From: a virus
DNA length: 34,229 bases
Reading direction: 5' to 3' (one strand)
Virus record (IMG/VR): IMGVR_UViG_3300021425_000099
Location: 1-34,229 of that record
Made by a program: the position numbers and the translations under genes. The notes under the pieces were generated by a model, which worked only from the letters and a program-made list of their open reading frames with translations, was not told where the DNA came from and ran no database searches. Below, one piece after another: positions 3,108-34,229 of the stretch. Each line of letters begins with the position of its first letter. The first letter of the stretch is position 1.

Positions 3108-3270
3108 GTGCTGGAAAGATATGGTGCCGATGTTTACGGCGGCTGACTACAGGCTAGAAGGCTGGGCTTGCAGTTGCGGACACACAGAGAAAGCCATACT
3201 GCGCGAGCGACGATTTACTATAGAGACTTACTATGGCGATAAAAAGAACCAACGCAGACATCGCGTTTAG
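3094..3270 (+). CDS. 58-residue zinc-ribbon protein
   Basis: A short frame overlapping the end of the preceding gene and the first 38 bases of the HNH gene. It has CIKC (residues 3-6) and CSCGH (26-30), so two cysteine pairs are about 20 residues apart, typical of a small zinc ribbon. The C-terminus is basic (KKNQRRHRV). No strong ribosome site is visible, so translation may depend on coupling. It fills what would otherwise be a 125-bp gap between genes, which supports it being real. Function unknown; nucleic-acid binding is plausible. Confidence 0.5.
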   Translation: MVCIKCWKDMVPMFTAADYRLEGWACSCGHTEKAILRERRFTIETYYGDKKNQRRHRV

Positions 3271-3616
3271 TAAAGCAGTTCGACTACGAGACGGTCGATG
3301 CTTGGTTTGCGGCACCGATCAGAGCTTAGAGTGCGCACACATTTACGGTCGCAGGAGTAAGGTAGGCCGATGCTCGATGGACAACGCAGTCACCTTGTGC
3401 AACTACCATCATCGGTTTTTCACTGAAAACCCTTTGGCTTTTGCAGGCTGGCTAGAGACAGAGTTGGGCGCAGGTCATTTAGAATTATTGACCGAGAAAA
3501 TGCGTGGCAAACTCAAAATGACTCAAGCTGTCCGCAACGAGATCGCCAAGCACTATCGCGAAGAGATACGCAAGAAAGAGCAAAACCCCGATTACGTCAT
3601 AGTTTCATTTAACTAA
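3233..3616 (+). CDS. HNH endonuclease
   Basis: A 127-residue protein with the HNH zinc layout: CLVC (23-26), then CAHI (34-37), and NAVTLCNYHH (51-60), followed by RFF.ENP..F..WLE. The second cysteine pair and the His residues form the zinc-supported beta-beta-alpha nuclease site. It resembles the NinG-like or free-standing HNH proteins of phage early regions that process recombination intermediates. Nothing suggests it is embedded in an intron or splits a host gene, so it is probably a functional part of the replication module rather than a homing parasite. Confidence 0.75.
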   Translation: MAIKRTNADIAFSKAVRLRDGRCLVCGTDQSLECAHIYGRRSKVGRCSMDNAVTLCNYHHRFFTENPLAFAGWLETELGAGHLELLTEKMRGKLKMTQAVRNEIAKHYREEIRKKEQNPDYVIVSFN

Positions 3617-16072: not shown

Positions 16073-16522
16073 ATGGAGTTTGCAATCGAAAGTCTGGCAA
16101 AGGTACGTCGAGAGATAGAGCCTCTGCTTGTAAAACACTACGAAGAAATCGCGCTCAATAAGGAAATTATTAAGCTCAACCCTGATTGGCGAGCATACGC
16201 GGAGCTAGACAGTATCAACGCACTGCGCATTTACACGGCCCGCAAAGACGGCAAGCTAATGGGCTATTTTGTTTGCATCGTCAGTCGTTCACTGCACTAC
16301 AAAGATCACCTCTTTGCCAACAACGATGTCATTTTTCTAACGAAGACAGCACGCAAGGGACTGACAGGCATGAAGCTGGTAAAATTCGCCATAGAGTCTC
16401 TGACGGCTGAGGGTGTGACGAAGTTGCATATCAATACTAAAGCGCACCAGCCTTTTGACCCCATTATGGTGCGTCTCGGTTTCGAGGAGATTGAAACAGT
16501 ATTTAGCAAAGTTTTGAGGTAA
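16073..16522 (+). CDS. GNAT-like acetyltransferase in tail tip module
   Basis: 149 residues with an N-acetyltransferase layout: helix (IEPLLVKHYEEIALNKEIIK), beta strands around LRIYTARKDGKLMGYFVCIV, the segment FANNDVIFLTKTARKGLTGM corresponding to beta4 and the CoA loop, helix KLVKFAIESLTAEG and a closing FDPIMVRLGFEEIETVFSKV. The family occurs in tail-tip regions of other phages; its substrate is unknown. AAGGAGG lies six bases before the ATG. It takes the slot where an NlpC/P60-type lambda gpK homologue would be expected. It may modify a virion or host protein. Confidence 0.8.
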   Translation: MEFAIESLAKVRREIEPLLVKHYEEIALNKEIIKLNPDWRAYAELDSINALRIYTARKDGKLMGYFVCIVSRSLHYKDHLFANNDVIFLTKTARKGLTGMKLVKFAIESLTAEGVTKLHINTKAHQPFDPIMVRLGFEEIETVFSKVLR

Positions 16523-16526
16523 CAGC

Positions 16527-19500
16527 ATGGCAGTTTCAGCGGTCGCAGGTTTAGCAAGTGCAATAGGAGCGGCGGCGGCTGGCCTAGCTTTTTTTACATT
16601 TGAGGCGCTAACAGTTGGCGCGTTTTTTGGTTATTTCGCATTAGGTGCTGGACTATCTGCACTATCTCGCGCTTTAGCACCAACCCCAAAACTAGGGTCG
16701 CAAATGCGCGGCCTTACGCAAACAACTCGCGAACCCGCAGGATCACGCAAATTAGTTTACGGACAGCTACGAGTTGGTGGTCAAGTTGTGTTTATTGCCA
16801 ACTCAGGCACAGATAACGAATACCTGCACCTCGTTATCGTGTTTGCCGCTCATGAAATAGAGTCGTTTGAAGAATTTTGGTTTAACGACAACAAGGTGTA
16901 CGAGAACAATGCTGTCGTTTCTGCGTGGTCAGACTATGTGACGATTGCCAAGTTTGACGGATCGCAAACCACCGCCGACTCAACACTTACGTCCGTTTCT
17001 AATCAGTGGACTAACAACCATATTTTAAATGGCATGGCTTACGCGCACGTCAGACTAAAGTGGGATGCAGATCAATACCCGCAAGGCGTGCCAAACATAA
17101 GCGCAGTCATAAAAGGCAAGAAGGTTTACGATCCGCGAGACAGCAACCAAAGCGCGACAGACGCATCGACGTGGACGTACAGCCAAAACCCTGCGCTGTG
17201 TGTCCGCGACTATTTAGTAGATACCAAATACGGCCTTGGTGAAGACCGCACACTAATCGACAGCACCGCGCTTACTGCGGCGGCTAATCTGTGTGAGGAG
17301 TCAATCAGCTTAGATGGCGGCGGCACTCAAGATCGCTACAGGCTCAACGGTCAAATAGATACTGCAAACCAAATCAAGGACAACATAGAGCAGATGCTGT
17401 CCGCTATGGGCGGCACGATGAGCTACTCAGGCGGTAAGTATTTTCTGCGTGGCGCTGAGTACATTACGCCGACAGTTACATTTGACGAAGCTGACTGCGT
17501 TGCTGATATTCAGCTACAAACCAAGCAGTCGCGTAGGGGCGCGTATAACGGCGTCAAGGGCATTTTTGTTTCAGAGGAGAAAGACTACAAGGTACTCGAC
17601 TATCCTGCTCAGATAAGCTCGACATACGCCACAGAGGACGGCGATCCGATATACCTTGATATGCCTTTGCCGTTTGTTACTAACAACGTGCAGGCACAGC
17701 GCATTGCAAAAATTGCATTACTTAAGTCACGCCAGCAAACCGTTATTTCGATGGTGGTGAACCTTAAAGGGTTGCGCGTTAAAGTAGGCGACACAATTAA
17801 TGTTTCTAACACGCACCTCGGCTATAGCAACAAGGTGTTTGAGGTCATTGATTACTCGCTGGCTATTGCTGACGGCGGCACTCTTGCTGTTAGCCTGACG
17901 TGCATAGAGACAGCTTCTGCAATTTACGACTGGACGACTAGCGACCAAGAGGACTTTTTAAGCGGTGGAACGCTTCCGCTTTACGATGGCCGCACCGTTG
18001 ATAACGTCACGTCGTTACAGCACAGCGTCGTCGGCTTGAAAGGACCAGACGGCAAGCTAATTACTAGCGTCGATTTAACGTGGACTGCGCCAAATGACGC
18101 ATTCGTTGAGTTTTACGTCGTCACCTATGAAAAAGATAGCGACGGCGATGTGTATGAAGTGCAAACACGCAACCCTCGCGTTCGGCTTTCAGAGCTTACA
18201 ATTGGCTCGGCTTATACCTTTACTGTTAAAGCGCAGAACCTAATCGGTGTTAGAAGTAGCGGGACGACCCTTAACGTCGCCAGCCTAGCAGGTGACACCA
18301 CAGCGCCAGCAGTTCCAACTAGCCCGAGTACAACAGGCGGCATTCGTCAGATCACGGTTGAGTGGACTGAAGCAACAGACGAAGATTTGGCGCTCACGCT
18401 TATCTATTACAACGATACCGACAACCTAAGCACGGCGACTAGAAGCAAAACGCGAGGCGAGGAGTTTGTCTATACGCTGGCTGACGGCGAGACTAGCCCA
18501 AAGACCAAATACTTCTGGTTGAGTTCAATCGACTATTCGGGCAACGAATCAGCTAAGACGAGCAGTTTTACGGGCACATCGGTTAGGACAAAAGAGAACG
18601 ACATTGCCGATGGCGAAGTCACTACAGGCAAGATAGAAAACGGCGCTGTCACAGAGGTCAAAATCGAAGACGGCGCAGTCACTGCTGGCAAAATAACTGT
18701 TGGCGAATTGTCTGCTATCACGGCTGACATTGGTGACATCACTGCGGGAACGCTACAAGCCAACACGTCAACACCGATACCCGACGCAAACGACTCTCCC
18801 TCTGGTAGCGAGACAGGCGCGTTCATCGACCTAGACAATGGAAAGTTTGTATTTGGTGACGCTAACAAGCACCTGCTGTATGACGGCTCAACGCTCGTAG
18901 TCAAAGGGGAATTAGAGGCCGATATTCTCGACGTTATTGACGCGACTATTACAGGACAGCTTACAGCTAATGCGATTTCTGCGGGTGCGGTTACAGTCGA
19001 GTCATTGTCTGCTGGTGTGTTTGCTGAGTTCGACGACCGCTACGGCACAAGCGGTGGCTTTTACGTCACAGATACTGACGAGTTTTTCGATGGCAACAGC
19101 ACAAAGTACGTTACGGTCGGAACGGTAGCGCACAGCACAGACGACATCTATTTCGAGTGCCGACTAAATCACTCGTGGAGTTGGCCGCGTAATGACACAG
19201 GCGACAAGCTAAACGCTAACGTCAGCTTTGAGTACAGCACAGACAACAGCACTTGGACGACTGTACCTAGCAGTACGACTCAAGTAGCTACAGCCACAGG
19301 TGTGGTTGCTCAGTACGCAACGCTGTACAGCATTGCAGAAGACATTACCTACACGATGACAGGCAGTGCGCTTACCGCTGGTAACTACTATTTCCGCGTC
19401 AAGATCGTCGCACAGAACAGCACTAACGCTTTTCAGTTGGCCGCGTTTGGTAGTGGTAGTGGTGTCCCGATTGCGTTTGAGGTACAGGAGTCATCGGGGC

Positions 19501-22500
19501 TTTCTGCGGCAGGCGGTAACGCTGACACGCTTGATGGCTTAGACAGCACACAGTTCCTACGCTCTGACACTAACGACACATTCGACGGCAATCTGACCAT
19601 CACGGGCGACCTGATACTGCAAGGCGGTATTGACCAGTACAACGTCACTAACCTCACAGTCGATGACAAGACCATCACAGTTAATGCTGGTAGCACTCAA
19701 GCATTAAGCGACGGCGCTGGCCTTATCGTTGATCGCGGCACTGCGGCAGATGCGTCTATTACGTGGGATGAGACAAACGACGAGTTTGATTTTAGCCATG
19801 ACGTGACCGCACCGAACCTCAGCATTAGCAACTGGAACACTGCTTACACCTACAGCCAAGTCGGGCACTTACCTTTAGCTGGCGGCACTGTTACAGGCGC
19901 AGTCACAGTACAGGATAACGTGACCGCAGACTCAGCCGATATAAATGAAATTTACATAGGCAAAGGCAATCAAAACGCCGATCAAAACGCTAGAAACATA
20001 GGCGCGTCTAGCAGCTATCTGCTACTGCAAAGAGACGCTGACATTCCTATCGAACTTTGGGGTAGCAAGGTCGAATCGCGCTCAACGCATTATTTTGGTT
20101 CGCAGGCTGGTGGTAAATACATAAATACGGCAGGTGCCGCTGTATTAGGTGATGTCACAACTGCTGATATTGACAGTGTAGGGACAGCGAATTTTGGCAA
20201 CAGTGGGTCGGGTGCATACAAACTCAATATACACACCACAGGCAATCAAGACGCTATTGCCATATACGCAACTTCAACTTCAGGAACCAGTGATCAGTCT
20301 GCTATCCGATTCTTTAACGATGGGGGACTTTCAGCACACATCGGTCTAGCTGTTGATGCGGGACGCTTACTGCCAAATACAGCCGCCAACGATTTTGCAA
20401 TAAAAACGTTTGGCAGTTTGCATCTCGGTAACGGCAATGGAACTAATCTATTCACGTTTACCAACACGGGAAACATGAAGGTCGGGAACGACACGGTTTT
20501 AACTAGCAACAAAGCGCTGACCAACATAGCGTCAATAGATATGCCGACTAGCGGTTCGCAAATTATGGTCAACGCCTATTCGACCACATCGCAAGAAGGC
20601 GGCGGCATCTTCTTCCGTGATGGGTTCGACAGTTCAGCCAAGTACAACCTGTCAATCATGGCACGATCTCGTGCAGATGACGGCTCTACAGACGGGTTGA
20701 GCATAAACGGCTATGAAGGTATTGCGTTTAGTACAGGCTCGAATAGCTACAACGAGCGGCTTTTTATAGATTCGAGCGGCAACTTCGACTTCAACGATGG
20801 AGCGATTAGTAACGCTGGAGCTATTACGTCTGAGGGCGCAATAACCGCAGGTGATGGCTCAACGTCGCTTGGATATTACGTTGGTGCTAATCAAGTCATC
20901 AACGGATCAAGAGTCGCTACCTTTGCTCAAGTTATAAGCAGTGGCACGCTGAGCGGTACGTCTTTGTACTTTAACAATAGCCATTCTAAAACTAAGATTC
21001 GTTTGCTTGGCTCTACTGACGGCGCACATAACATTGGCACAGAATCCTATAACAACACCTACGGCCCAAACTCTTGGACAGGTGGCACGATAGGCCATAG
21101 ATTTTACGGTACGCCTACCAGTTTAATAGCGAGACTTGGCACTGGCGGGGCGTCGGGTGATCTCAACAGTGAGTTTTATGGGTCAGTAAAGATAGATCAG
21201 ACTAGCTCATCTCTCATTGATCATCTCGTATTAGAAAATGACAATGCTGGGGGCGCTGGTGGTGCCATTGCCTTTAAACAACTAGGCGGCACGAAAGCCA
21301 AACTTAAATCGTATTTTGGTTCTAATCAGTGGACGTTCGCCATTGACACGGAAGATACCACTAATGCGTTTGAGATTTACGACGACGGCACGGTAAATAT
21401 AAGTGGCGCTTTAGAATCAGGCGGCACTACAATTCTATCCTCAACACGTCGTTTCTATGCTTCTAATGGTACGTCTGTCAAAGCCGCATACTCGTTTGAT
21501 GGGGATTCAGGAACAGGTATTAGCCGCACTGCGGCAGGTCGTATTGACTTCCTATCAAGTGGCGCTATTAAGGCATATATAAAGACAGGCACTAGCAATC
21601 CAATATCGCCGACAATGTATGTCGATGGTCGCACAGAAATCAACGGCGTCGTTACATGGACAGGCGGTAGCTCTACCAATGCGAATACAGCCTACGGTTG
21701 GGGCGATCACTCAACTCAAGGATACCTTACTTCGTCGTCATCTATAGCGGCGACACAACTTACAGGCACAATCAACAACAATCGACTCAGCTCTGATGTG
21801 TTAATTACGGATGGCGGGACATACTCGACAGGTTTTGCCGCTGATCTTGACACGATAACGGGCTTCCGCATTCATCGCGTAACAGGCTTTACAGGCACCG
21901 ATCATCGGGCGTTCACAGGACATCACAATCTAATACAAATACCTAATACGTCTAGCTCTGGGCCGTATGAAGTTCAATTAGCCTTTACGACAGTTTCATC
22001 AGGAACACCTGAATTTAAGTTTAGATCGTCGGGAGTCACATGGTCAGATTGGGTAAAGGTGTTTAATGACGGCTATCACCCGAACGCTGACAAGTGGACA
22101 ACGGCTCGCACTCTATCACTAACAGGAGCGATCACAGGATCGGTAAGCTGGGACGGATCTGCCAACGCCTCACTAGCGACTACGGTTGGAGACTTGGGCA
22201 GTATTACTGTCACAGATTTAACGGTAGACGGCACTACAAACGCAAGCGTCAGGATAGATAGAGCAAGCACGTCTCACCATAACAATTTACTGTATTACAC
22301 CAACGGAAGTTTGTCGTGGCGTATATGGCAATCAGGCGCTGATAACACGCTTGCAATCCGCAACGAAGCGTCTACGACAAACGTCATCACGATGACGAAT
22401 ACGGACACATTGTTTGCAAATAACGTCACCGCCAATGGCTCTTTTGTTACGTCTACAGCATCTACGGCAGTAGGTATTTATGCAGGGTCAACACAGATCC

Positions 22501-25500
22501 TAGAAGGATCTACTAGGAACCTAAAAAATATCGGCACAATCAATTCGGGCAGTGTTACTAGCTCGGGTCATGTAAAGGCCACAAACTTTTTCATCGGAAC
22601 CGTTACTAGTGACCTGATTAATATCCATACAGATAGCTCAAATGGTCAGATAGCAACATACCGCAACAACGCAGGCTATTTTCTTCACCGAACATACGCT
22701 GATTACAATAACGATGGAACTACGGTTGAATTACAACAGCGTGTCGGAAACGATGGCAATTATTCAAGTATCGGCAATTTCACCGCACACGACTTCCATT
22801 TAAGAACAAACAACACAAACCGTATAAGCATCGGCAGTGCTGGGAACGTCAGCATAAGCAACGCGCTGTCTATTGTTAATGGCATAGATTCAAACACAGG
22901 CGGTGCGGGTGCCAATCTTTTCCGCGCGAACACAAGTGATGGTCGAGTGCTTCGACTGAGAGATCGCACGGATAACGGCGGTAACATAATTCAGTTTGAG
23001 CAAAACAATGGATCAGGTATCTGGGAGGTTGTCGGACGCTCAAGTCAGTTTTACGTGTACAAAAACAGTGGCACTGGGGCAGGTTTAAAATGGAATATTG
23101 ATTCTAGTGGCAATCACACCTTTAACGGTGACATGGCGCTAGTCAATCAAGTTACTTTAGGCACCAACCTTTCAACTACGAACGCGGGTCGTCTTAGAGT
23201 AGAGGGCACATTTGCAAATACAGGTGCGGCGTCACACCCACGCATTACCTTTAACGATGACAACTTTGGTATTGGCGCTGGAGGCTGGGCAACAACAGGA
23301 AACAACGACGATCTTTACTTGTGGTCGTATAACGGCGCTGGCAGGAAGATACGTTTCGCGGTAACGACAGACGGCGGAACAGATGTAACAAATGCCGCTT
23401 GGACTACCAACGCAACTATTGATAACGATGGAAACTTTGATTTAGCTAGAGGCGCATTAGAAGTTGGCGGCAACACGGTAATAGCGACGACACGCCGTTT
23501 TTATGCTTCTAACGGTACAGTCGCAAAAGCCGCGTTCTCGTTCGATGGCGAATCCAGCACTGGTATGTACAAGTACGGCACGAATCAGATTGGATTTACT
23601 GCTGGCGGCAGTCTTATGGCTTACGTGCAAAACGTATCAGGCTCTGCCGCTCTGATCGTACAGGGTCAGATCAACGCATCGGGCGGCAACTCTGGTAACT
23701 GGAATACCGCTTACGGCTGGGGTGACCATAGTACCGCTGGCTACCTACAAACGAATGACAACATAACGGTAGGCACCATTTCCTCGGGCGCTATTACCAC
23801 TAGCGCCAACTTCTTGATGACGGGCGGGTACTCTATATACCTAGGCACCACTAGCCGTTTTAGCTCAGACAATAACGGCGGCTTTGGCATTAACTATGGG
23901 ACTACAGGAGGCACCGCAACCGCAAGCCTGTCGATCTACAACAATACCACGGCAACTATTCAGCTAAACCGCAACGGCACCATCTCCTCGGGCGCTATTA
24001 CTAGCAGTGGGGCATTGACGACATCCACTGGCGTCATCATGAATAATGGTGGCGACAAGTATTGGGTGCGTTGGTCGAGCGCGTCAACTACTGGCCTGTA
24101 TTATCGTCAAACACCCGCCCAAAAATTACAGTTTTTGTTTGGCGGCTCCGAGCGTTGGGGTGTTGATGCTAGCGGCAACATGAACGCCTATAACAACATC
24201 ACCGCAGGTGGCTCATTCGTTACTGCTACGTCGTCGAGCGCACTGGGTATATACGCGGGATCGACTCAAGTGTTTGAGGGTTCCACTAGGAACCTTAAGA
24301 ACATAGGCACCATCTCCTCGGGCGCTATCACTAGCAGTGGGCACATAAAAACTACTGGCGGCGATTTTAAGATCGGTGGCGACAGCGTTATCACTAGCAA
24401 TAGAGATGTTTACGCGAGGAGGCTGTTTTACAGCGATTACGCCGACTTCAGCGGAATCCTGTATTTACGCAATACCATAAATGTTCTAAATGCTACTGAC
24501 AACGGCTGGAATACTTTTGCGGCTCGCTCTAATGGCAGATTCAACCTCACTATAGGCTCGCTCTCAAGTAACAGCACAGGGCAATTCGAAAACATAGGTA
24601 TCGGAATCGCGCCAAGCACTCCTGCCATCAAGGTTTACCACACCGATAACTTTGAGGCTGGTGAGTTTATAACGAACGCAGGCGGGTCACTAATTCGCTA
24701 TCGTGACAACACCTCAACAAGCATTGAAATTGGAATACAAGGCGGCGTTCCTGTAATACGTACAGGTAGTCAGGCAAGGCTGACAGTTGATGGCTCTGAC
24801 TTAAAAATTAACAGCGGTGCTTTAAAGATCGCTAACACGTCGGTAATCACCAGTGGTCGTTTCTTGGAGAATGTGACGCTAGAGGCTGGAGCCGCAGGCG
24901 CAAGATTTAAACACAGTGATTGGCACCAATCTACTGACGGTAGAAATCGCTTTTATTTTGCGCTCAATAGCCATACGTACTATCGAACAGGTAACGCTTT
25001 CATTTACCGCAATAACGCCGATGGTGGAGTTGCTACTATAGACGCCGCTGGCAGAATGCGCCTACAAACAAGTTCCGATCAGTTAAGTATTGGCGCTGGC
25101 TTACAAATAGGCAACAACACCTTTACGGGCGCTAACGGCGTTTTTGCGAGCAGTCGTATAGGCGCTATGGTAAACGGCTCGCTTACGAGCTATGTCTACG
25201 CAAGTACGTATAACGATGCAAACTTCCCTGACTACGGTTTTGTATTCATCCACGGGCCAAGCACCTCAAGCTATAACGTGTGGTCTATCAGTCCCGATGG
25301 CCCTGCAAAAGGCAATGCCCTTAACTTTATATACGGCAATGGCGCGACCAACATCCACACGACTGCGCCAAAGGTTGTGTTTGATGGTAGTGGGAACGTC
25401 GATATTAAGGCAGGCGCTCTCCAAGCCTTTAAAGCTGGGTATCAATTGCGCTTGCGCCGTACTGATCTTGTCGATCAGGACTGGCGTTTTTATTCTTGGA

Positions 25501-27128
25501 GTGGCGGATTAAATATCTTCCCCGCCGCAACCTCGGCTGTTTATTTTGGCAGAGATGGCGCGACAACTAACGTCAGCATTTACAACGGCAACCTAGTGAT
25601 GGGAACGGGTGATACCACCATCATTTCGTCTGCCAGAAACGTAGAGAACATTAATCACTTTGGCGTCGCAAATACGACGACTGTTAATCAAAAGCGAGCA
25701 ACATTTACCTACGGGGCCAGCGATTCAAACTTCCAGCTTGCTATAGCAAATGGTAGCGGTAGCACTAGCAATTCTGAGCAGGCTTGGCTTGGCCTCTACT
25801 ACGGATCAAATAAGCGAAGTGGTATTTCGTTTTTACGATCTGGTAATGCTTATGGCGGTGACATGGTGTTCACCACCAGTCAAAACAACACGCGAATGAC
25901 TATCGCGGGTCAGACAGGCAACATTGGAATCGGTGTAACTCCCAATGCGTCATATAAGTTATACGTCGGCGGTTCGATCGCTCAGTCATCAGGAAGCATC
26001 TATTCGTATGGCGATATCGTTATTGGTCAGGGCGGTCTGAAAAGAGGCTCAACAGATTTAATAACGAGCGCTTTGGAATTAAGGAATATCACAAAGGCCA
26101 CAATCGGCTCTCCTTTGTCAGGAACCTTCCCCGACACAAACGCACAGCTAGATATTGCGTCAACAACAGCCCAAACCAACTTTAGCTCTAAAGCGCTGAG
26201 TTACGGCTCTGATCGGGCTTCTATTGTTGTGGATGCGCGGCATGGCTCAACAAAAGACGGGGTGCTCGGCTACGCTGGGCCTATGATGGATTTTCGCGCA
26301 CACAACGCCAGCTATCAGTGGTCTGTTGCTCAAATCATTGGCACGGTTGACCCAGAGAACGGCAGTACTTTCCAAGGCGGCCTTGTATTTTCTACGTCAG
26401 GCGGCGGTACAGCTAATCCTACGGGACGAAGAAATCAAGGTGCCGCACCTACTGCTCGAATGCTTATTGGCGCAGGCGGTAACGTCACGATCCTTACTGG
26501 CGATCTTAAGTTTGGCAACAGCCTAACGAGTGTAATTACCTCAGCCAGAGAAATTCGCAATGTGGAAAACGCGAATATAGGTAACTTGCGCGTAGGATAT
26601 AGCTCTCTAGGTACAACATCTACATATGACAACAGCATAGAATCGACGGGTAGCTATCTTCTTCTGCAACGAAACCAATCTGCACCAATTGAAATTTGGG
26701 GTAGTCGAGCCGAACTGCGTTCAGCGACATATTTCGGTTCGTTGTCTGACGCGCATGGATATGTAGACACGAGCGGCAACGCTACCTTTGAGGGAAATGT
26801 CACAGCGTATGGCTCACCGTCTGACATAAGACTAAAAGAAAACGTCGAGCGTATTGCTGACCCCATTGCGAAAGTTAAGAAGTTGGATGGCGTCACGTTT
26901 AACTACAAGAAAGACGGGGGGCGGTCTACTGGCTTAATTGCACAGCAGTTATTAGAGGTTCTGCCAGAGGTCGTCTATGAGACTGAAGATTTGGCGACAG
27001 GCGAAGAACATTATGCGGTACGATACGGCAACGTAGTCGGCCTGCTAGTTGAGGCAATGAAAGAACAGCAAGATACAATCGAATCACTAACCAAGCGAAT
27101 AGAGGAGCTTGAAAATGGCGATAACTAA
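16527..27128 (+). CDS. Giant gpJ-like central fibre with C-terminal S74 chaperone domain
   Basis: 3533 residues, 31% of the genome. A hydrophobic Ala/Gly-rich N-terminus (about 1-50, gpI-like) leads into a gpJ-type hub domain (about 60-480: GSRKLVYGQLRVGGQ, NPALCVRDYLVDTKYGLGED). Two fibronectin III-like domains (about 493-590, 592-686) and a short GAVT..KI.DGAVTAGKI repeat (690-745) follow. About 750-3420 is a long beta-repeat shaft with duplicated modules. The end is a Peptidase_S74 intramolecular chaperone with SDIRLKE, Ser3432 and Lys3437 as the likely catalytic pair, then a coiled-coil tail. Self-cleavage would release it after trimer folding. It binds the host. Confidence 0.93.
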   Translation: MAVSAVAGLASAIGAAAAGLAFFTFEALTVGAFFGYFALGAGLSALSRALAPTPKLGSQMRGLTQTTREPAGSRKLVYGQLRVGGQVVFIANSGTDNEYLHLVIVFAAHEIESFEEFWFNDNKVYENNAVVSAWSDYVTIAKFDGSQTTADSTLTSVSNQWTNNHILNGMAYAHVRLKWDADQYPQGVPNISAVIKGKKVYDPRDSNQSATDASTWTYSQNPALCVRDYLVDTKYGLGEDRTLIDSTALTAAANLCEESISLDGGGTQDRYRLNGQIDTANQIKDNIEQMLSAMGGTMSYSGGKYFLRGAEYITPTVTFDEADCVADIQLQTKQSRRGAYNGVKGIFVSEEKDYKVLDYPAQISSTYATEDGDPIYLDMPLPFVTNNVQAQRIAKIALLKSRQQTVISMVVNLKGLRVKVGDTINVSNTHLGYSNKVFEVIDYSLAIADGGTLAVSLTCIETASAIYDWTTSDQEDFLSGGTLPLYDGRTVDNVTSLQHSVVGLKGPDGKLITSVDLTWTAPNDAFVEFYVVTYEKDSDGDVYEVQTRNPRVRLSELTIGSAYTFTVKAQNLIGVRSSGTTLNVASLAGDTTAPAVPTSPSTTGGIRQITVEWTEATDEDLALTLIYYNDTDNLSTATRSKTRGEEFVYTLADGETSPKTKYFWLSSIDYSGNESAKTSSFTGTSVRTKENDIADGEVTTGKIENGAVTEVKIEDGAVTAGKITVGELSAITADIGDITAGTLQANTSTPIPDANDSPSGSETGAFIDLDNGKFVFGDANKHLLYDGSTLVVKGELEADILDVIDATITGQLTANAISAGAVTVESLSAGVFAEFDDRYGTSGGFYVTDTDEFFDGNSTKYVTVGTVAHSTDDIYFECRLNHSWSWPRNDTGDKLNANVSFEYSTDNSTWTTVPSSTTQVATATGVVAQYATLYSIAEDITYTMTGSALTAGNYYFRVKIVAQNSTNAFQLAAFGSGSGVPIAFEVQESSGLSAAGGNADTLDGLDSTQFLRSDTNDTFDGNLTITGDLILQGGIDQYNVTNLTVDDKTITVNAGSTQALSDGAGLIVDRGTAADASITWDETNDEFDFSHDVTAPNLSISNWNTAYTYSQVGHLPLAGGTVTGAVTVQDNVTADSADINEIYIGKGNQNADQNARNIGASSSYLLLQRDADIPIELWGSKVESRSTHYFGSQAGGKYINTAGAAVLGDVTTADIDSVGTANFGNSGSGAYKLNIHTTGNQDAIAIYATSTSGTSDQSAIRFFNDGGLSAHIGLAVDAGRLLPNTAANDFAIKTFGSLHLGNGNGTNLFTFTNTGNMKVGNDTVLTSNKALTNIASIDMPTSGSQIMVNAYSTTSQEGGGIFFRDGFDSSAKYNLSIMARSRADDGSTDGLSINGYEGIAFSTGSNSYNERLFIDSSGNFDFNDGAISNAGAITSEGAITAGDGSTSLGYYVGANQVINGSRVATFAQVISSGTLSGTSLYFNNSHSKTKIRLLGSTDGAHNIGTESYNNTYGPNSWTGGTIGHRFYGTPTSLIARLGTGGASGDLNSEFYGSVKIDQTSSSLIDHLVLENDNAGGAGGAIAFKQLGGTKAKLKSYFGSNQWTFAIDTEDTTNAFEIYDDGTVNISGALESGGTTILSSTRRFYASNGTSVKAAYSFDGDSGTGISRTAAGRIDFLSSGAIKAYIKTGTSNPISPTMYVDGRTEINGVVTWTGGSSTNANTAYGWGDHSTQGYLTSSSSIAATQLTGTINNNRLSSDVLITDGGTYSTGFAADLDTITGFRIHRVTGFTGTDHRAFTGHHNLIQIPNTSSSGPYEVQLAFTTVSSGTPEFKFRSSGVTWSDWVKVFNDGYHPNADKWTTARTLSLTGAITGSVSWDGSANASLATTVGDLGSITVTDLTVDGTTNASVRIDRASTSHHNNLLYYTNGSLSWRIWQSGADNTLAIRNEASTTNVITMTNTDTLFANNVTANGSFVTSTASTAVGIYAGSTQILEGSTRNLKNIGTINSGSVTSSGHVKATNFFIGTVTSDLINIHTDSSNGQIATYRNNAGYFLHRTYADYNNDGTTVELQQRVGNDGNYSSIGNFTAHDFHLRTNNTNRISIGSAGNVSISNALSIVNGIDSNTGGAGANLFRANTSDGRVLRLRDRTDNGGNIIQFEQNNGSGIWEVVGRSSQFYVYKNSGTGAGLKWNIDSSGNHTFNGDMALVNQVTLGTNLSTTNAGRLRVEGTFANTGAASHPRITFNDDNFGIGAGGWATTGNNDDLYLWSYNGAGRKIRFAVTTDGGTDVTNAAWTTNATIDNDGNFDLARGALEVGGNTVIATTRRFYASNGTVAKAAFSFDGESSTGMYKYGTNQIGFTAGGSLMAYVQNVSGSAALIVQGQINASGGNSGNWNTAYGWGDHSTAGYLQTNDNITVGTISSGAITTSANFLMTGGYSIYLGTTSRFSSDNNGGFGINYGTTGGTATASLSIYNNTTATIQLNRNGTISSGAITSSGALTTSTGVIMNNGGDKYWVRWSSASTTGLYYRQTPAQKLQFLFGGSERWGVDASGNMNAYNNITAGGSFVTATSSSALGIYAGSTQVFEGSTRNLKNIGTISSGAITSSGHIKTTGGDFKIGGDSVITSNRDVYARRLFYSDYADFSGILYLRNTINVLNATDNGWNTFAARSNGRFNLTIGSLSSNSTGQFENIGIGIAPSTPAIKVYHTDNFEAGEFITNAGGSLIRYRDNTSTSIEIGIQGGVPVIRTGSQARLTVDGSDLKINSGALKIANTSVITSGRFLENVTLEAGAAGARFKHSDWHQSTDGRNRFYFALNSHTYYRTGNAFIYRNNADGGVATIDAAGRMRLQTSSDQLSIGAGLQIGNNTFTGANGVFASSRIGAMVNGSLTSYVYASTYNDANFPDYGFVFIHGPSTSSYNVWSISPDGPAKGNALNFIYGNGATNIHTTAPKVVFDGSGNVDIKAGALQAFKAGYQLRLRRTDLVDQDWRFYSWSGGLNIFPAATSAVYFGRDGATTNVSIYNGNLVMGTGDTTIISSARNVENINHFGVANTTTVNQKRATFTYGASDSNFQLAIANGSGSTSNSEQAWLGLYYGSNKRSGISFLRSGNAYGGDMVFTTSQNNTRMTIAGQTGNIGIGVTPNASYKLYVGGSIAQSSGSIYSYGDIVIGQGGLKRGSTDLITSALELRNITKATIGSPLSGTFPDTNAQLDIASTTAQTNFSSKALSYGSDRASIVVDARHGSTKDGVLGYAGPMMDFRAHNASYQWSVAQIIGTVDPENGSTFQGGLVFSTSGGGTANPTGRRNQGAAPTARMLIGAGGNVTILTGDLKFGNSLTSVITSAREIRNVENANIGNLRVGYSSLGTTSTYDNSIESTGSYLLLQRNQSAPIEIWGSRAELRSATYFGSLSDAHGYVDTSGNATFEGNVTAYGSPSDIRLKENVERIADPIAKVKKLDGVTFNYKKDGGRSTGLIAQQLLEVLPEVVYETEDLATGEEHYAVRYGNVVGLLVEAMKEQQDTIESLTKRIEELENGDN
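23976..24011 (+). repeat. 36-bp direct repeat in fibre gene, copy 1
   Basis: Starts GGCACCATCTCCTCGGGC and ends in ACTAGCAGTGGG; matches 24306-24341 with one mismatch, in the same frame (GTISSGAITSSG). A third, partial copy starts at 23772. Identity at synonymous sites implies recent duplication or gene conversion. Confidence 0.85.
24306..24341 (+). repeat. 36-bp direct repeat in fibre gene, copy 2
   Basis: Second copy, 330 bp (110 codons) after the first, so recombination between the two would delete or add 110 residues in frame. Confidence 0.85.
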
Positions 27129-27384
27129 TACACGCGCAGTTCAGCGCATTGAGACATACCCTGCGGCTGACGCAGACAGCGATGCCACTTTAATGGTGGT
27201 ATACGAGCATACGTTTGACGACTCAACAGATGACGCTCTGCCTGTGACTAGCACAGTGGTGAAGCATCTACAGCGCTACGTCGTAACGACTGACGACGAT
27301 GGCAACGAGACATCGACAGCAACAGACGTGACTGGCGAGGCGCAACTGGTACAGGATATCTGCGCGGCTGTCTGGACTGACTAA
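27115..27384 (+). CDS. Small acidic fibre-associated protein
   Basis: 89 residues from the ATG at 27115, preferred over the upstream TTG because GGAG lies seven bases before it. The start overlaps the fibre's last codons. Strand-rich and acidic (ADADSDATLMVVYEHTFDDS), with VKHLQRYVVTTDDDGNETS and a C-terminal AQLVQDICAAVW helix. It looks like a minor tail or fibre accessory protein by position; no family recognised. Confidence 0.6.
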   Translation: MAITNTRAVQRIETYPAADADSDATLMVVYEHTFDDSTDDALPVTSTVVKHLQRYVVTTDDDGNETSTATDVTGEAQLVQDICAAVWTD

Positions 27385-27950
27385 TGCCGTTACAGACATC
27401 GGGTGCGATATCACTGCAAGACTTGCAGGACGAGTTCAATATCGGCTCGCACCCTATTACGCTCACTGAGTATGCGGGACTTAGAACGTCAGGCAGTGGC
27501 ACGACTATCAGCTTGTCAGACTATTACGGCGCTACAAACTCGCCTGTCGTAACGCAGGGGACACTGCAACAGCAATTCTCGACGATCTATGGCTTTAATG
27601 ATGCGAATAGCGTCGGGTCAGTGTCTCCGAGTAACTGGATGAATGCCAGCGGTGAGGTTCGCACGATTAAAGAGATCGCGAGGGTACAGGCATCGTCTGG
27701 TCTGTTCTTTCAGTTTGAGCTTAGTTATTCATCGGCAGTGCCAGCGAATGACTTCACCAGCATTCAGTTTACGGCCAACGGTACGCTGACCACGCTGACA
27801 TCGGCAGAGTCATCCACTACGACAACGCAGGGCGGATTCGGTCGGCGCTGGACGTGGAGCTTTGCCAACGGTCTGGACACCACAGAGCTTGCCAATATAG
27901 CGGCTGAGTTTGATGGGTCAGGTAACGTCACGATCACGGTGAACGCATGA
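27384..27950 (+). CDS. Virion protein with ISLxDLQxEF-type N-terminus
   Basis: 188 residues. The N-terminal 50 (SGAISLQDLQDEFNIGSHPI, then SLSDYYGA) match a short module common at the start of tail or appendage proteins of aquatic phages. The rest is beta-rich (VTQGTLQQQFSTIYGFNDAN, FFQFELSYSS, ITVNA). Starts in a TAATG overlap and ends in an ATGA overlap with its neighbours, so it is co-translated with the fibre-associated genes. A surface or fibre-tip role is likely. Confidence 0.65.
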   Translation: MPLQTSGAISLQDLQDEFNIGSHPITLTEYAGLRTSGSGTTISLSDYYGATNSPVVTQGTLQQQFSTIYGFNDANSVGSVSPSNWMNASGEVRTIKEIARVQASSGLFFQFELSYSSAVPANDFTSIQFTANGTLTTLTSAESSTTTTQGGFGRRWTWSFANGLDTTELANIAAEFDGSGNVTITVNA

Positions 27951-28189
27951 GGACGCTGATATACGATACGCCAGCGGATGATGCCACGCACCTAGAGGGA
28001 TTCGTGGAGTCTGAAGCTATAACGCAGGAGGCTCCTGTACCATTCCGCGTGCCGATGATTAAGACAAATGGCGTCAATGACATGGAGGCCACCATCGCTC
28101 TCGTGCATTTGATGGAGGATCGCATTGACGAGGACATCGCTGACGGATCAGTTATCGGAAGGGTGCCGATAGATCCAACTACGGTGTAA
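27947..28189 (+). CDS. Small protein of fibre module, unknown
   Basis: 80 residues (MRTLIYDTPADDATHLEGFV...), acidic, with a helical centre (MEATIALVHLMEDRIDEDIA) and a C-terminal GRVPIDPTTV. It overlaps the preceding virion gene by four bases. No family recognised. Its position at the end of a coupled three-gene set downstream of the fibre suggests an assembly or decoration role. Confidence 0.55.
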   Translation: MRTLIYDTPADDATHLEGFVESEAITQEAPVPFRVPMIKTNGVNDMEATIALVHLMEDRIDEDIADGSVIGRVPIDPTTV

Positions 28190-28236: not shown

Positions 28237-28452
28237 ATGGAAAATCAAAATCAAGTAACTGAGGAGCAGTTTGTTCTAGCGCAACGCATGGAATCACTTG
28301 CTCGACAAAACGCACAACAGGCTTTGCGCATTGCTGATTTAGAGGCACAGATCGCGCTGACACAAGCCAAAGCACAGCAGTCCGAACAACCTCAAGCAGA
28401 GGAAGTCTCCGATGACGACTATGAGGACGTTGTGCCTGACACTGTTAATTAG
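28237..28452 (+). CDS. Short coiled-coil protein
   Basis: 71 residues; about 14-47 form a Gln/Ala/Leu-rich coiled coil (MESLARQNAQQALRIADLEA). The tail is very acidic (EEVSDDDYEDVVPD). AGAGGGG lies five bases before the ATG, and a TACAAT lies upstream in the 47-bp gap. Its C-terminus overlaps the signal peptide region of the next gene. No family recognised; oligomerisation is likely. Confidence 0.65.
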   Translation: MENQNQVTEEQFVLAQRMESLARQNAQQALRIADLEAQIALTQAKAQQSEQPQAEEVSDDDYEDVVPDTVN

Positions 28453-29098
28453 TGTCTCTGTTCCTGCCTTCGGGCAGGATATAGAACCTGCGCCTGAGAT
28501 TGACCCACCGCCGTCATTACCTACTGAAGACGGACCAGAAATGGAAGACGGCATAAGAAACGAAGGCGACTTAAACACTAACAACATCAACTCAAACAAC
28601 GGCAACAGCACGGTCAATAATTCAGGACCGAATGCTGGCTCGCGTATGCCTGCAAATACTGCTGTCAGTCCATCGCTTATGTCTGGCGGTAGCGAGTCGT
28701 GCTTGCAGTCAATGTCAGGTGGCGTGCAATTAGTTGGCTTTGGTGTGTCGTCGGGTAAATACGTGCAGGACATAGAGTGCAACAGACGCGCCTTTGCTCG
28801 CGTCATGGCGGATCTCGGTTTGAAGGTTCCAGCCGTTAGCTTGCTCTGCCAGAACAAAGACGTTTGGCGAGCAATGCTCATGGCGGCGACACCGTGTCCA
28901 GTGGTAAAATACGGAAAGATACTTGTCGGAAAGCGGGCCATGCTTGAGATTAAGAAGCGGCCAAAGCTACTGATACCAGATTACAGTGATGACAGGGAAT
29001 TTTACGACGCCATTCTAGGCATGGGGGTAGAAACAGATGAGGCAGAAACACCTGTTGGCAATCTGTCTGATCGCTATCGGTCCAGCACACGCGAATGA
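28412..29098 (+). CDS. Exported four-cysteine phage protein
   Basis: 228 residues. A Sec signal peptide (MRTLCLTLLISVSVPAFG, about residues 4-21) precedes a Pro/Asp-rich and Asn-rich low-complexity stretch (about 25-75). The folded part has four Cys in SCLQSM, IECNRR, LLCQ and TPCP contexts, enough for two disulfides in the periplasm. Similar proteins occur near lysis genes of other phages and lack a known role. The ATG at 28412 has GAGGA eight bases upstream. It could act on the outer envelope or in superinfection control; this is inference. Confidence 0.75.
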   Translation: MTTMRTLCLTLLISVSVPAFGQDIEPAPEIDPPPSLPTEDGPEMEDGIRNEGDLNTNNINSNNGNSTVNNSGPNAGSRMPANTAVSPSLMSGGSESCLQSMSGGVQLVGFGVSSGKYVQDIECNRRAFARVMADLGLKVPAVSLLCQNKDVWRAMLMAATPCPVVKYGKILVGKRAMLEIKKRPKLLIPDYSDDREFYDAILGMGVETDEAETPVGNLSDRYRSSTRE

Positions 29099-29873
29099 AA
29101 TTGACAACCTAGTCAACGCCTCGCAGGATATACGCGACACCTTCAAGCATGGCATTCAAGTTATAGCAGGAAGTGAAAGCTACGCGTGGCAAGGTTTGTT
29201 GTCACCTGACGGATCTATTGACCAAGGGCTACTTGATAAAGCAAAGCAAGATGCCTACAACGCCGCTGTTCTTGCAGTTAAAAATCAAACCTACACCTAC
29301 GACCCAAACAGTCAGCAATACTTTGAGGATCAAGCATCGAGCGCAATGGACGTTGTGAGCGAAACTATTGATGCATATGTTGAAGCCGCGCAAGTTTTGA
29401 TAGAGGTGGCGACCGTCAACGAGATGGCGCAAGACGCGGCAAATGCTCAAGACGATCGACAGGCGATGGCGCTACAAGACTACATGGCCGCTAACGATGT
29501 CACGCTAGAAGATCAAGAGGTCGATCAATACAACGATGCGCTGGTAGCCGTACATGAGGCGACGCAAGTAGCCGCCGCGTACATGGCTGTAGCTAATGAC
29601 GAGTCGTTGCAAGAAGTGGCAGACGGCATGGCATACGATTTGCGAGTGACGTATCAAGAAGCGGCCAGTGTGTTTTTTGATGCGGCCACACAATCAGTGT
29701 GGATTTCGTTTGACGGTGGCGAAACAATACAGGGCTTAAACCTCGGCAATTACTACGTGTCGGTTGAGGATGTTTTGATCGAGGGCGAACAACAGCCGTT
29801 TTTCACTAGCTCCCCCGAAGGCGGTTGCTGGTTCGAACAAGATCCAGAGGCGTGCTACAACAATGGCGATTGA
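29037..29873 (+). CDS. Second exported protein, helical
   Basis: 278 residues starting with a good signal peptide (MRQKHLLAICLIAIGPAHA, cleavage after the AHA motif). The mature part is acidic, Ala/Gln-rich and mostly helical (about 65-205), with a beta C-terminus containing two Cys (GGCWFEQDPEACYN). It overlaps the previous exported gene by 62 bp. The paired arrangement suggests the two proteins work together in the periplasm or envelope. No family recognised. Confidence 0.7.
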   Translation: MRQKHLLAICLIAIGPAHANEIDNLVNASQDIRDTFKHGIQVIAGSESYAWQGLLSPDGSIDQGLLDKAKQDAYNAAVLAVKNQTYTYDPNSQQYFEDQASSAMDVVSETIDAYVEAAQVLIEVATVNEMAQDAANAQDDRQAMALQDYMAANDVTLEDQEVDQYNDALVAVHEATQVAAAYMAVANDESLQEVADGMAYDLRVTYQEAASVFFDAATQSVWISFDGGETIQGLNLGNYYVSVEDVLIEGEQQPFFTSSPEGGCWFEQDPEACYNNGD

Positions 29874-30396
29874 AGATTTAGAGCTAAACGTCGGCGGCAC
29901 GCAGATCAAGGGCGTGTGGATTGCTATCTTACTGTCGTTTGCGTCAACTATCGGCGGCGGTATTTGGACAGCGTCAGAATTTTTCAGTCGCTTGGAGGCG
30001 CTAGAATCCGCTGTAAGCGACGCTACATCTGGCACGGCAGTCATAGAGGGTAGATTCGAGGACTTGCGTACAGCGCAATCAGAGACGCTACAGGGCTATC
30101 AAGTCAGCATATCTAATATGCAACAGCAGTTAGACGACAACAACATTGCAGACTTGCAGGGCAAGCTGGCAGAGCTATCAACGAACCTGTCTCAAATTAT
30201 GGAGCTACAGCGCGACCTGTTGCCGCTACGTGACAGGGTAGCCGCAGTCGAAAAATCTAATAGCGAGACGGTGCTAGTAGTCAATGGTAAAATAGAGTCA
30301 TTAAGTAACGTGGCCGACAGGATGAATCGCACGTCGAGAGAAATTGACGATTTGTGGTTGGCTATGGACGAACTTGCAAACCCATTAGGACGATGA
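29863..30396 (+). CDS. Membrane-anchored coiled-coil protein
   Basis: 177 residues: a short N-terminus (MAIEDLELNVGGTQIKG), one transmembrane helix (about 17-37, IAILLSFASTIGGGIW) and a long coiled coil (about 38-170). The topology would put the coil in the periplasm, like an i-spanin, though it is larger and lies before the endolysin. The N-terminal GGTQIKGVWIA motif recurs in lysis-region proteins of aquatic phages. The start overlaps the previous stop by 11 bp. Confidence 0.65.
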   Translation: MAIEDLELNVGGTQIKGVWIAILLSFASTIGGGIWTASEFFSRLEALESAVSDATSGTAVIEGRFEDLRTAQSETLQGYQVSISNMQQQLDDNNIADLQGKLAELSTNLSQIMELQRDLLPLRDRVAAVEKSNSETVLVVNGKIESLSNVADRMNRTSREIDDLWLAMDELANPLGR

Positions 30397-31314: not shown

Positions 31315-31713
31315 ATGTGGCAATCGCTAGTTGGGCCAGTTGCTGGACTGCTGGACAAGTTTGTTGAGGATAAAGACCAGAAAGCAAAGCTCGCGCACGA
31401 GATCAGCACGATGGCTGAAAAGCACGCGCAGGAGCTTGCCAAAGCACAGCTAGAGGTCAACAAGGTAGAGGCGGCACACAAGTCGCTATTCGTATCGGGC
31501 TGGCGTCCTGCTGTAGGCTGGTGCTGTGTATTGGGCATGACTGGCAACTTTATGGTCATACCCTTTACTAACTTTGTACTCGCACTGCTGGCGATAGATG
31601 TGACCATCCCACTGATCGACTTAGAGACAATGATGCCCGTCCTTATGGGTATGCTAGGCTTAGGCGCTATGCGAAGCTACGAAAAGACCAAAGGCGTATC
31701 GAGAGAAAAATGA
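31315..31713 (+). CDS. Three-TM holin
   Basis: 132 residues matching the 'holin of 3TMs, for gene-transfer release' family: an N-terminal amphipathic helix (AKLAHEISTMAEKHAQELAK onward), then SLFVSGWRPAVGWCCVLGMT leading into the first membrane helix, a second around 80-97 and a third around 106-121 (MMPVLMGMLGLGAMRSYEK). The SGWRPAVGW motif is diagnostic. It forms lesions in the inner membrane that release the endolysin encoded next (ATGA overlap). Confidence 0.88.
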   Translation: MWQSLVGPVAGLLDKFVEDKDQKAKLAHEISTMAEKHAQELAKAQLEVNKVEAAHKSLFVSGWRPAVGWCCVLGMTGNFMVIPFTNFVLALLAIDVTIPLIDLETMMPVLMGMLGLGAMRSYEKTKGVSREK

Positions 31714-33957: not shown

Positions 33958-34150
33958 CTGTGGCGAGGCGCTACGCAGGGCGCAGTTTGAGTACGGCATT
34001 AGTAATGTGCAACTGGCTAGAGACTTGGGCGTACCACGCCAAGAGATCAGCAGGTGGCGCACCCAAAGTGATTGGCGGCTGAGTCGCGTGGTTCAAATGA
34101 GCGAGCGATTCGGTCTGTCGATCGAGGACTTTGTGAGTTTAGGGAGGTAG
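33938..34150 (+). CDS. Small XRE-like helix-turn-helix protein
   Basis: 70 residues. The HTH is clear at about 22-41 ([20 protein letters not shown]), followed by a third helix pair ([20 protein letters not shown]) as in XRE/Cro-type DNA-binding domains. The start lies inside the SSB tail (20-bp overlap). It has no dimerisation domain beyond the fold, so it resembles Cro more than CI. It may control the divergent promoters at 32304-32454, where palindromes are present. Confidence 0.8.
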
Positions 34151-34229
34151 TTAATGCAGTGTCCATGTGGTGGTTCGACAAAAAGCTCAGGCAACGTGCA
34201 TAAGTGCGAAAGCTGTGGGCGTGCTTACA
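34085..34229. repeat. Contig-end overlap, right copy
   Basis: Second copy of the sequence at 1-145, with 143 of 145 positions identical. Both differences lie in the last 19 bases and fall inside the small zinc-ribbon gene, where each changes an amino acid. They may be population variants or end-of-contig errors. Confidence 0.9.
34154..34229 (+). CDS. Zinc-ribbon peptide, second copy cut by contig end
   Basis: Start of the same gene as 70-156, truncated by the end of the contig. It carries two amino-acid differences (Ser20, Ala24). The cysteine pairs are unchanged in both versions, so both should still bind metal. Confidence 0.8.
   Translation, partial: MQCPCGGSTKSSGNVHKCESCGRAY

Follow-up and report, generated by a model that had tools for sequence, protein, structure and literature searches.

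The window analyzed here, a marine metagenomic viral contig of 34,229 nucleotides (positions 1 to 34,229 of IMG/VR record IMGVR_UViG_3300021425_000099), carries a siphophage gene order of terminase, portal, scaffold, capsid, tail tube, and tape measure (629 aa), followed by further tail genes. The record is classed as linear in the database. Because bases 34085 to 34229 are a copy of bases 1 to 145 (145 bp, 2 mismatches), so that the contig ends overlap, the window probably represents an entire, circularly mapping genome of ~34.08 kb (34,084 bp). Behind the tape measure lie genes for a distal tail protein and an L-like tail protein, a small acyltransferase-like gene, and then the gene we call J, the order typical of gpJ-type tail tips. 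J is open through 3,533 codons with no internal stop and makes up 31.1% of the ~34,084-bp genome, as had been proposed from the sequence alone (a 3533-residue fiber taking 31% of the genome). The features of J and of the genes behind it are collected in Table 1; L and G numbers denote the contigs that were compared with the window.

The 149-aa gene that adjoins J upstream (16073 to 16522) matches a PHROG “acetyltransferase” family, and the gene just ahead of J in Pelagibacter phage HTVC026P is annotated as “toxin-activating lysine-acyltransferase.” The product of 16073 to 16522 might modify the tail tip.

Table 1. Features of the J gene and of the genes directly downstream (positions in the window, residues of J)
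Feature	Residues	Position	Strand	Basis or remark
J gene: hub, FN3 pair, shaft, and S74 chaperone		16527..27128	+	3,533 aa
Hub (Phage-tail_3/central tail fiber J)	1-500	16527..18026	+	PF13550, phrog_31; 62-80% identity to backbone relatives
FN3 pair, putative hub-arm swap joint	513-692	18063..18602	+	fn3 PF00041, AF2
About 3 decapeptide repeats (GAVTxxKIxx)		18609..18695	+	TRF, period 30
Beta domain “Jc,” ahead of shaft	851-990	19077..19496	+	AF2, homologues
Module family “m1000” (fiber entry)	1016-1097	19572..19817	+	Family scan
SYLLLQR..WGS segment, copy 1	1158-1211	19998..20159	+	50% to copy 2
Module A (RRFYASNGT...AYGWGDHST)	1611-1763	21357..21815	+	BLAST
WSDW...ADKWTTARTL module	1824-1889	21996..22193	+	Family scan
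STRNLKNIG module, copy 1	1965-2024	22419..22598	+	BLAST
95-aa shaft module	2019-2112	22581..22862	+	Family scan
Module B (second RRFYASNGT...AYGWGDHST copy)	2293-2434	23403..23828	+	BLAST
STRNLKNIG module, copy 2	2556-2617	24192..24377	+	BLAST
91-aa shaft module	2752-2842	24780..25052	+	Family scan
SYLLLQR..WGS segment, copy 2, just ahead of chaperone	3371-3426	26637..26804	+	BLAST
S74 intramolecular chaperone	3432-3533	26820..27125	+	PF13884
Three small genes (91, 188, 80 aa), apparently travelling with the arm		27109..28189	+	Identity to L064/L065

The N terminus of J is a gpJ-type hub. It matches PF13550 over residues 279 to 429 (E 3e-7), the phrog_31 family “central tail fiber J” over residues 147 to 432 (E 7.5e-57), and the solved tip attachment protein J 9e7m_Ja (phmmer, E 3e-4). 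FN3 domains separate the hub from the fiber, as expected for a gpJ-type protein: fn3 matches residues 513 to 575, and the FN3 pair gave a confident AF2 model that matches the lambda J tail tips 8iyk, 8k35, and 9e7m. The Jc domain was modeled as an all-beta block (pLDDT about 70 to 89) and has homologues in L065, L072, L087, and L090; these AF2 models are backed by nine sequences only. Lambda gpJ shares with the window J the PF13550/PHROG 31/9e7m hub homology, FN3 domains after the hub, and a place in the gene order behind the genes for the tape measure, the distal tail protein, and an L-like tail protein. The lambda protein has about 1,130 aa and no S74 domain, whereas the window J adds a modular shaft of ~2,500 aa and a chaperone in the same chain.

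That chaperone lies at the C terminus, where PF13884 matches residues 3432 to 3484 (E 9e-14; 51.9 bits against a curated cut-off of 22). With PF13550 and phrog_31 at the other end, this bears out the sequence-only reading that a gpJ-like hub, a shaft, and an S74 chaperone are fused in one chain. The S74 Ser, Asp, and Lys are invariant across 12 aligned tips, and the catalytic dyad, a Ser at the cleavage point and a Lys at +5, is intact in the window as S3432/K3437. The dyads of MyRF (S587/K592) and endoNF (S911/K916) have the same spacing (PMC8326128). From the conserved dyad, self-cleavage is predicted at P3431|S3432, freeing about 102 residues. A C-terminal PF13884 domain with Ser and Lys five apart and the chaperone placed after the shaft is common to endoNF, the T5 L-shaped fiber, KVP40-like gp37, MyRF, and the window J. 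In the phage fibers among these (endoNF, T5, KVP40-like), S74 ends a separate tailspike or fiber protein, whereas in the window it is fused to the hub and cleavage is predicted.

The shaft is built largely of modules shared with other phage fibers. Its 137-, 71-, 42-, 95-, 91-, and 83-residue families each have 31 to 124 matches in the gathered open reading frames (ORFs). The m1000 family (38 matches in fetched ORFs; up to 84% identity to L064) is common to many marine phage fibers, the 95-aa module (124 matches) is widespread among fiber genes, and the 91-aa module has 61 matches. The WSDW...ADKWTTARTL module is 76 to 84% identical over about 40 aa to the fiber of Vibrio phage K566; it recurs within KVP40-like gp37 fibers, as does the 71-residue family, and residues 1853 to 1888 match the Dec protein 6e3c (phmmer). 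The 56-residue SYLLLQR family was found, among the gathered ORFs, in the window (twice) and in L026 only. Residues 1201 to 1350, 1451 to 1600, 2151 to 2250, 2851 to 2950, and 3201 to 3300 had no match among the gathered sequences, and a contig scan with residues 2650 to 3370 returned no relatives. An AF2 monomer of shaft residues 1600 to 1910 was of low confidence (mean pLDDT 44).

Four motif pairs had been read from the sequence as internal duplicates, and they hold up. RRFYASNGT lies at residues 1641 and 2323, AYGWGDHST at 1722 and 2395, STRNLKNIG at 1995 and 2586, and SYLLLQR at 1163 and 3376, all within a few residues of the positions first proposed. Whole-protein self-BLAST gave the diagonal only, and a fragment self-comparison was therefore used. 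It recovered residues 1611 to 1740 against 2293 to 2413 (47% identity, E 3e-29, with a second match extending to 1763 and 2434), 1965 to 2024 against 2556 to 2617 (73%, E 1e-24), and 1158 to 1211 against 3371 to 3426 (50%, E 1.5e-12). Self-comparison of five window-shuffled copies yielded no matches, and no control of any kind scored above 26 bits, compared with 54 to 102 bits for the true repeats.

The sequence-only reading took these repeats as a sign that the fiber grew by module duplication. Recent growth of this kind, in which J would have copied its own modules, could account for the three significant repeat pairs, for copies still 70 to 79% alike in DNA, and for the near confinement of the SYLLLQR segment to the window. 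Internal copies should then be each other's closest relatives, and for most of the repeats they are not. Modules A and B are 40% identical to each other in the window over the full alignment (47% locally), and both have orthologues, in the same order, in the giant J chains of L064 and L065: A-A identities among the three are 64 to 68% and B-B identities 55 to 75%, against 33 to 46% for A-B. Because the copies are orthologous in all three shafts, the A/B duplication predates their divergence; the hubs of the same three proteins are only 29 to 41% alike. Copy 2 of the NLKNIG module is likewise nearer to L065 (73%) than to its own sister copy (65%). The repeats moreover account for just a small fraction of the shaft, which is free of tandem arrays (TRF). 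Recent growth is already contradicted for A/B, and as an account of the whole shaft we consider it improbable. The duplication claim survives only for the 56-aa SYLLLQR segment, which alone looks like a lineage-confined copy; for A/B and NLKNIG it gives way to inheritance from older shafts. We also rejected the possibility that an ancestral short J-S74 arm, of the kind seen in L010, once ended at SYLLLQR copy 1: this copy shows no significant similarity to the stretch ahead of S74 in L010.

Since the A/B duplication is old, the giant arm appears to have been gained by exchange and not by recent growth in place. Identity along J changes abruptly at the FN3 domains. In DNA, L072 is 56 to 79% identical to the window J over residues 1 to 500 (68 to 79% over 251 to 500), 93 to 96% over 501 to 700, 73% over 701 to 750, and 40 to 55% over 751 to 1000. 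The hubs of L073 and L074 are ~31% identical to that of the window, yet their proteins are 82 to 90% identical to it over residues 601 to 700 (FN3-2), where members of the window's hub clade, apart from L072 and L008 (the latter 82 to 92%), drop to 33 to 49%. Farther on, over residues 1001 to 1050, identity is back up to 82% (L064) and 58% (L065). Shaft modules are 84 to 98% identical to those of L064 and 58 to 66% to those of L065 (module A, 98% over 83 aa and 66%; module B, 87% over 77 to 99 aa to L064 residues 1839 to 1966, and about 56%), although the hubs are only 32% and 29% identical. This breakpoint pattern indicates that the whole arm was replaced at the FN3 domains. None of the gathered relatives has both this hub lineage and the whole shaft; L072 ends with its contig near residue 994, and L026 starts near residue 3375.

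The exchanged unit seems to extend past J. The three small genes behind the arm are 84 to 87%, 56 to 57%, and 77 to 92% identical to the genes that immediately follow the giant J in L064 and L065; in L026 the identities are 83 to 88%. The L064 portal is 23% identical to that of the window (23 to 30% for portal and terminase); the L065 contig does not cover the head genes, and the L065 homologues of the later window genes at 28412 to 30396 are 51 to 63% identical. Beyond the arm cassette, the window genes return to 73 to 91% identity with the same backbone relatives as the upstream genes. A GTA-type holin at 31315 to 31713 is 96% identical to the L064 holin; set against the 23% of the portals, this suggests that lysis genes are exchanged too. 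At 28412 to 29873 lie two overlapping conserved genes (228 and 278 aa) with no Pfam match, which are retained in backbone relatives whose arms are rods or split (L131, L083, L085, L086) and after the L065 giant J.

Two other explanations of this mosaic were weighed. One is that an old giant J was inherited vertically, without exchange in the window lineage, and was lost or split elsewhere. Similar arms exist in both split and fused form (L086/L088/L091; L047/L049), which implies that fission is easy. Several pairs, however, change abruptly in DNA identity at FN3, the shaft modules are 84 to 98% identical to those of a phage whose hub is only 32% identical, and giant arms occupy separate regions of the hub tree; purely vertical inheritance is therefore quite unlikely. 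The other is that the assembler joined the hub of one phage to the fiber of another. The contig is metagenomic, hub and arm differ in their closest relatives, and L047/L049 show single-base assembly or sequence differences in such genes. An artifact of this kind is nevertheless very hard to reconcile with a reading frame open through its full length, a contig that closes on itself, and post-cassette genes that match the same backbone relatives as the upstream genes. Moreover, a hub of this type is followed by the same FN3 and Jc domains in L072, an independent assembly; in L026 the matching tip and downstream genes are again joined, at 72% DNA identity across some 3.3 kb; and the layout recurs independently in L064, L065, and L106. 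We regard a chimera as very improbable.

Close relatives of the window carry other arms on the same backbone. Portals 81 to 92% identical to that of the window occur in G001, G002, G003, G006, G025 to G029, G031, and G032, whose J proteins measure 922 to 2,954 aa; the hubs of the backbone relatives are 51 to 80% identical to the window hub, and their J lengths range from 797 to 2,954 aa. The 55 complete J proteins of relatives, near-duplicates included, have a median of 1,192 and a maximum of 2,954 aa. The hub clade bears short knobs, coiled-coil rods of ~1,750 to 1,950 aa (assigned by Pfam coiled-coil matches in four arms and by length in the others), a 1,287-aa J-S74 chain (L010), and a 2,954-aa J-S74 chain (L106). 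A separate fiber gene lies downstream in most relatives and often carries an S74 of its own; neither the window nor L106 has such a gene. Measured from the start of J up to a common marker gene, the region spans 12.5 kb in the window and 9.2 to 10.3 kb in five split-arm relatives; the giant arm would therefore be in part a consolidation of several fiber genes and in part added length. In the hub tree, which comes from a quick search and is built on hubs that themselves recombine, the window and L106 fall in different starred sets amid other arm types, and the starred branches force at least two changes. Giant arms thereby appear to have arisen at least twice within the hub clade.

Giant chains also occur outside this clade. 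J-S74 proteins of 2,304 to 3,510 aa were found in L029, L030, L035, L037, L038, L046, L049, L064 (34.9 kb, with overlapping ends), and L065. With L106, these ten marine contigs share the hub-shaft-S74 order of the window; their hubs are 25 to 32% identical to that of the window (L106, 64%), and their shaft modules differ in order and number. The giant chains make up about 26 to 31% of the larger contigs L029, L035, L037, and L064. A unique size of the window J is thus ruled out, and the earlier statement that such length is rare in so small a genome must be softened: IMG/VR contigs contain at least 10 chains of comparable size. The J proteins of the cultured phages checked that have similar hubs span 719 to 1,560 aa (HTVC026P, 719; Loki, 820; CRP-406, 956; HTVC202P, 959; CRP-821, 971; Alteromonas phage P24, 1,560). 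The closest portals from cultured phages, ~50% identical to that of the window, belong to Pelagibacter phages. A search of open-licence PMC papers for giant tail fibers found no match.

We propose, as by far the most probable explanation, that the window J is a gpJ-type hub with a single-chain receptor arm that was gained as an FN3-shaft-S74 cassette by exchange at FN3. By homology to gpJ, three J copies would cap the tail tube, and each chain would leave the hub through the two FN3 domains and the beta domain before entering a long trimeric shaft of shared marine-fiber modules. The S74 domain would trimerize the C termini, initiate shaft folding, and release itself at the predicted site, so that about 3,431 residues would stay in the particle. 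The direction of transfer would have been inward: a foreign cassette, together with the small genes that follow it, recombined onto the phage's own hub, its repeats being mostly old modules inherited with it. The arm would stand in for the shorter J arm and the separate fiber gene of most relatives, and the receptor may be bound by its distal part or by knob-like shaft modules. T4-like shafts rise about 0.5 to 0.7 Å per residue. At such a rise the arm would be some 130 to 180 nm long, exceeding a tail estimated at roughly 95 nm from the 629-residue tape measure (1.5 Å per residue).

Host-recognition modules have been exchanged between Alteromonas phages A5 and V22, which belong to distant families (PMC10579305). 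There, separate fiber and chaperone genes move, whereas in the window the hub gene itself appears to have had its C-terminal portion replaced at the FN3 joint. Module exchange among distant marine phages is thus already known; what seems new is the exchange, as a cassette, of a gpJ with an S74-ended giant arm. A small phage could in this way change its host-recognition organ whole, keeping the tip that fits its tail and swapping the arm at a repeated immunoglobulin-like domain, and the tempting reading of growth by duplication is corrected. Close genomes whose main difference is the arm offer a natural comparison for host-range studies. More broadly, we speculate, with about even confidence, that small marine siphophages possess a portable system of receptor arms in the form of single-chain giant J arms, with FN3 as the recombination joint. 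If so, the joint lets whole arms pass between unrelated tail tips; the exchangeable arms include knobs, coiled-coil rods, short J-S74 chains, and giant J-S74 chains with the small genes downstream; and a giant arm serves as hub fiber and side fiber at once, making a separate side fiber unneeded.

Arm length also varies in other ways among these phages. The decapeptide array behind the FN3 pair is longer at the same J site in L008, L017, L126, L127, L133, L138, and L139 (8 to 15 pattern matches), a tandem element that changes length within the same J family. In L086 (13188), L088 (11833), and L091 (13957), J ends at a TAA and an in-frame S74 fiber ORF, with an AAGG-like site ahead of its start, begins 9 bases on; because the TAA is conserved in all three contigs, fused and split forms of J appear to be one stop apart. 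A one-base difference between L047 (6380 to 6485) and L049 splits a 2,782-aa J-S74 chain into 1,452 and 1,294 aa, through either a sequencing error or a real frameshift. The hub-clade J proteins of L131, L079, L080, L083, L084, L085, L089, L095, L096, L099, L121, and L137 bear very long, coiled-coil-like rods with repeats such as TTAEGSITTNASDITALETTVN, which represent quite another route to a long arm.
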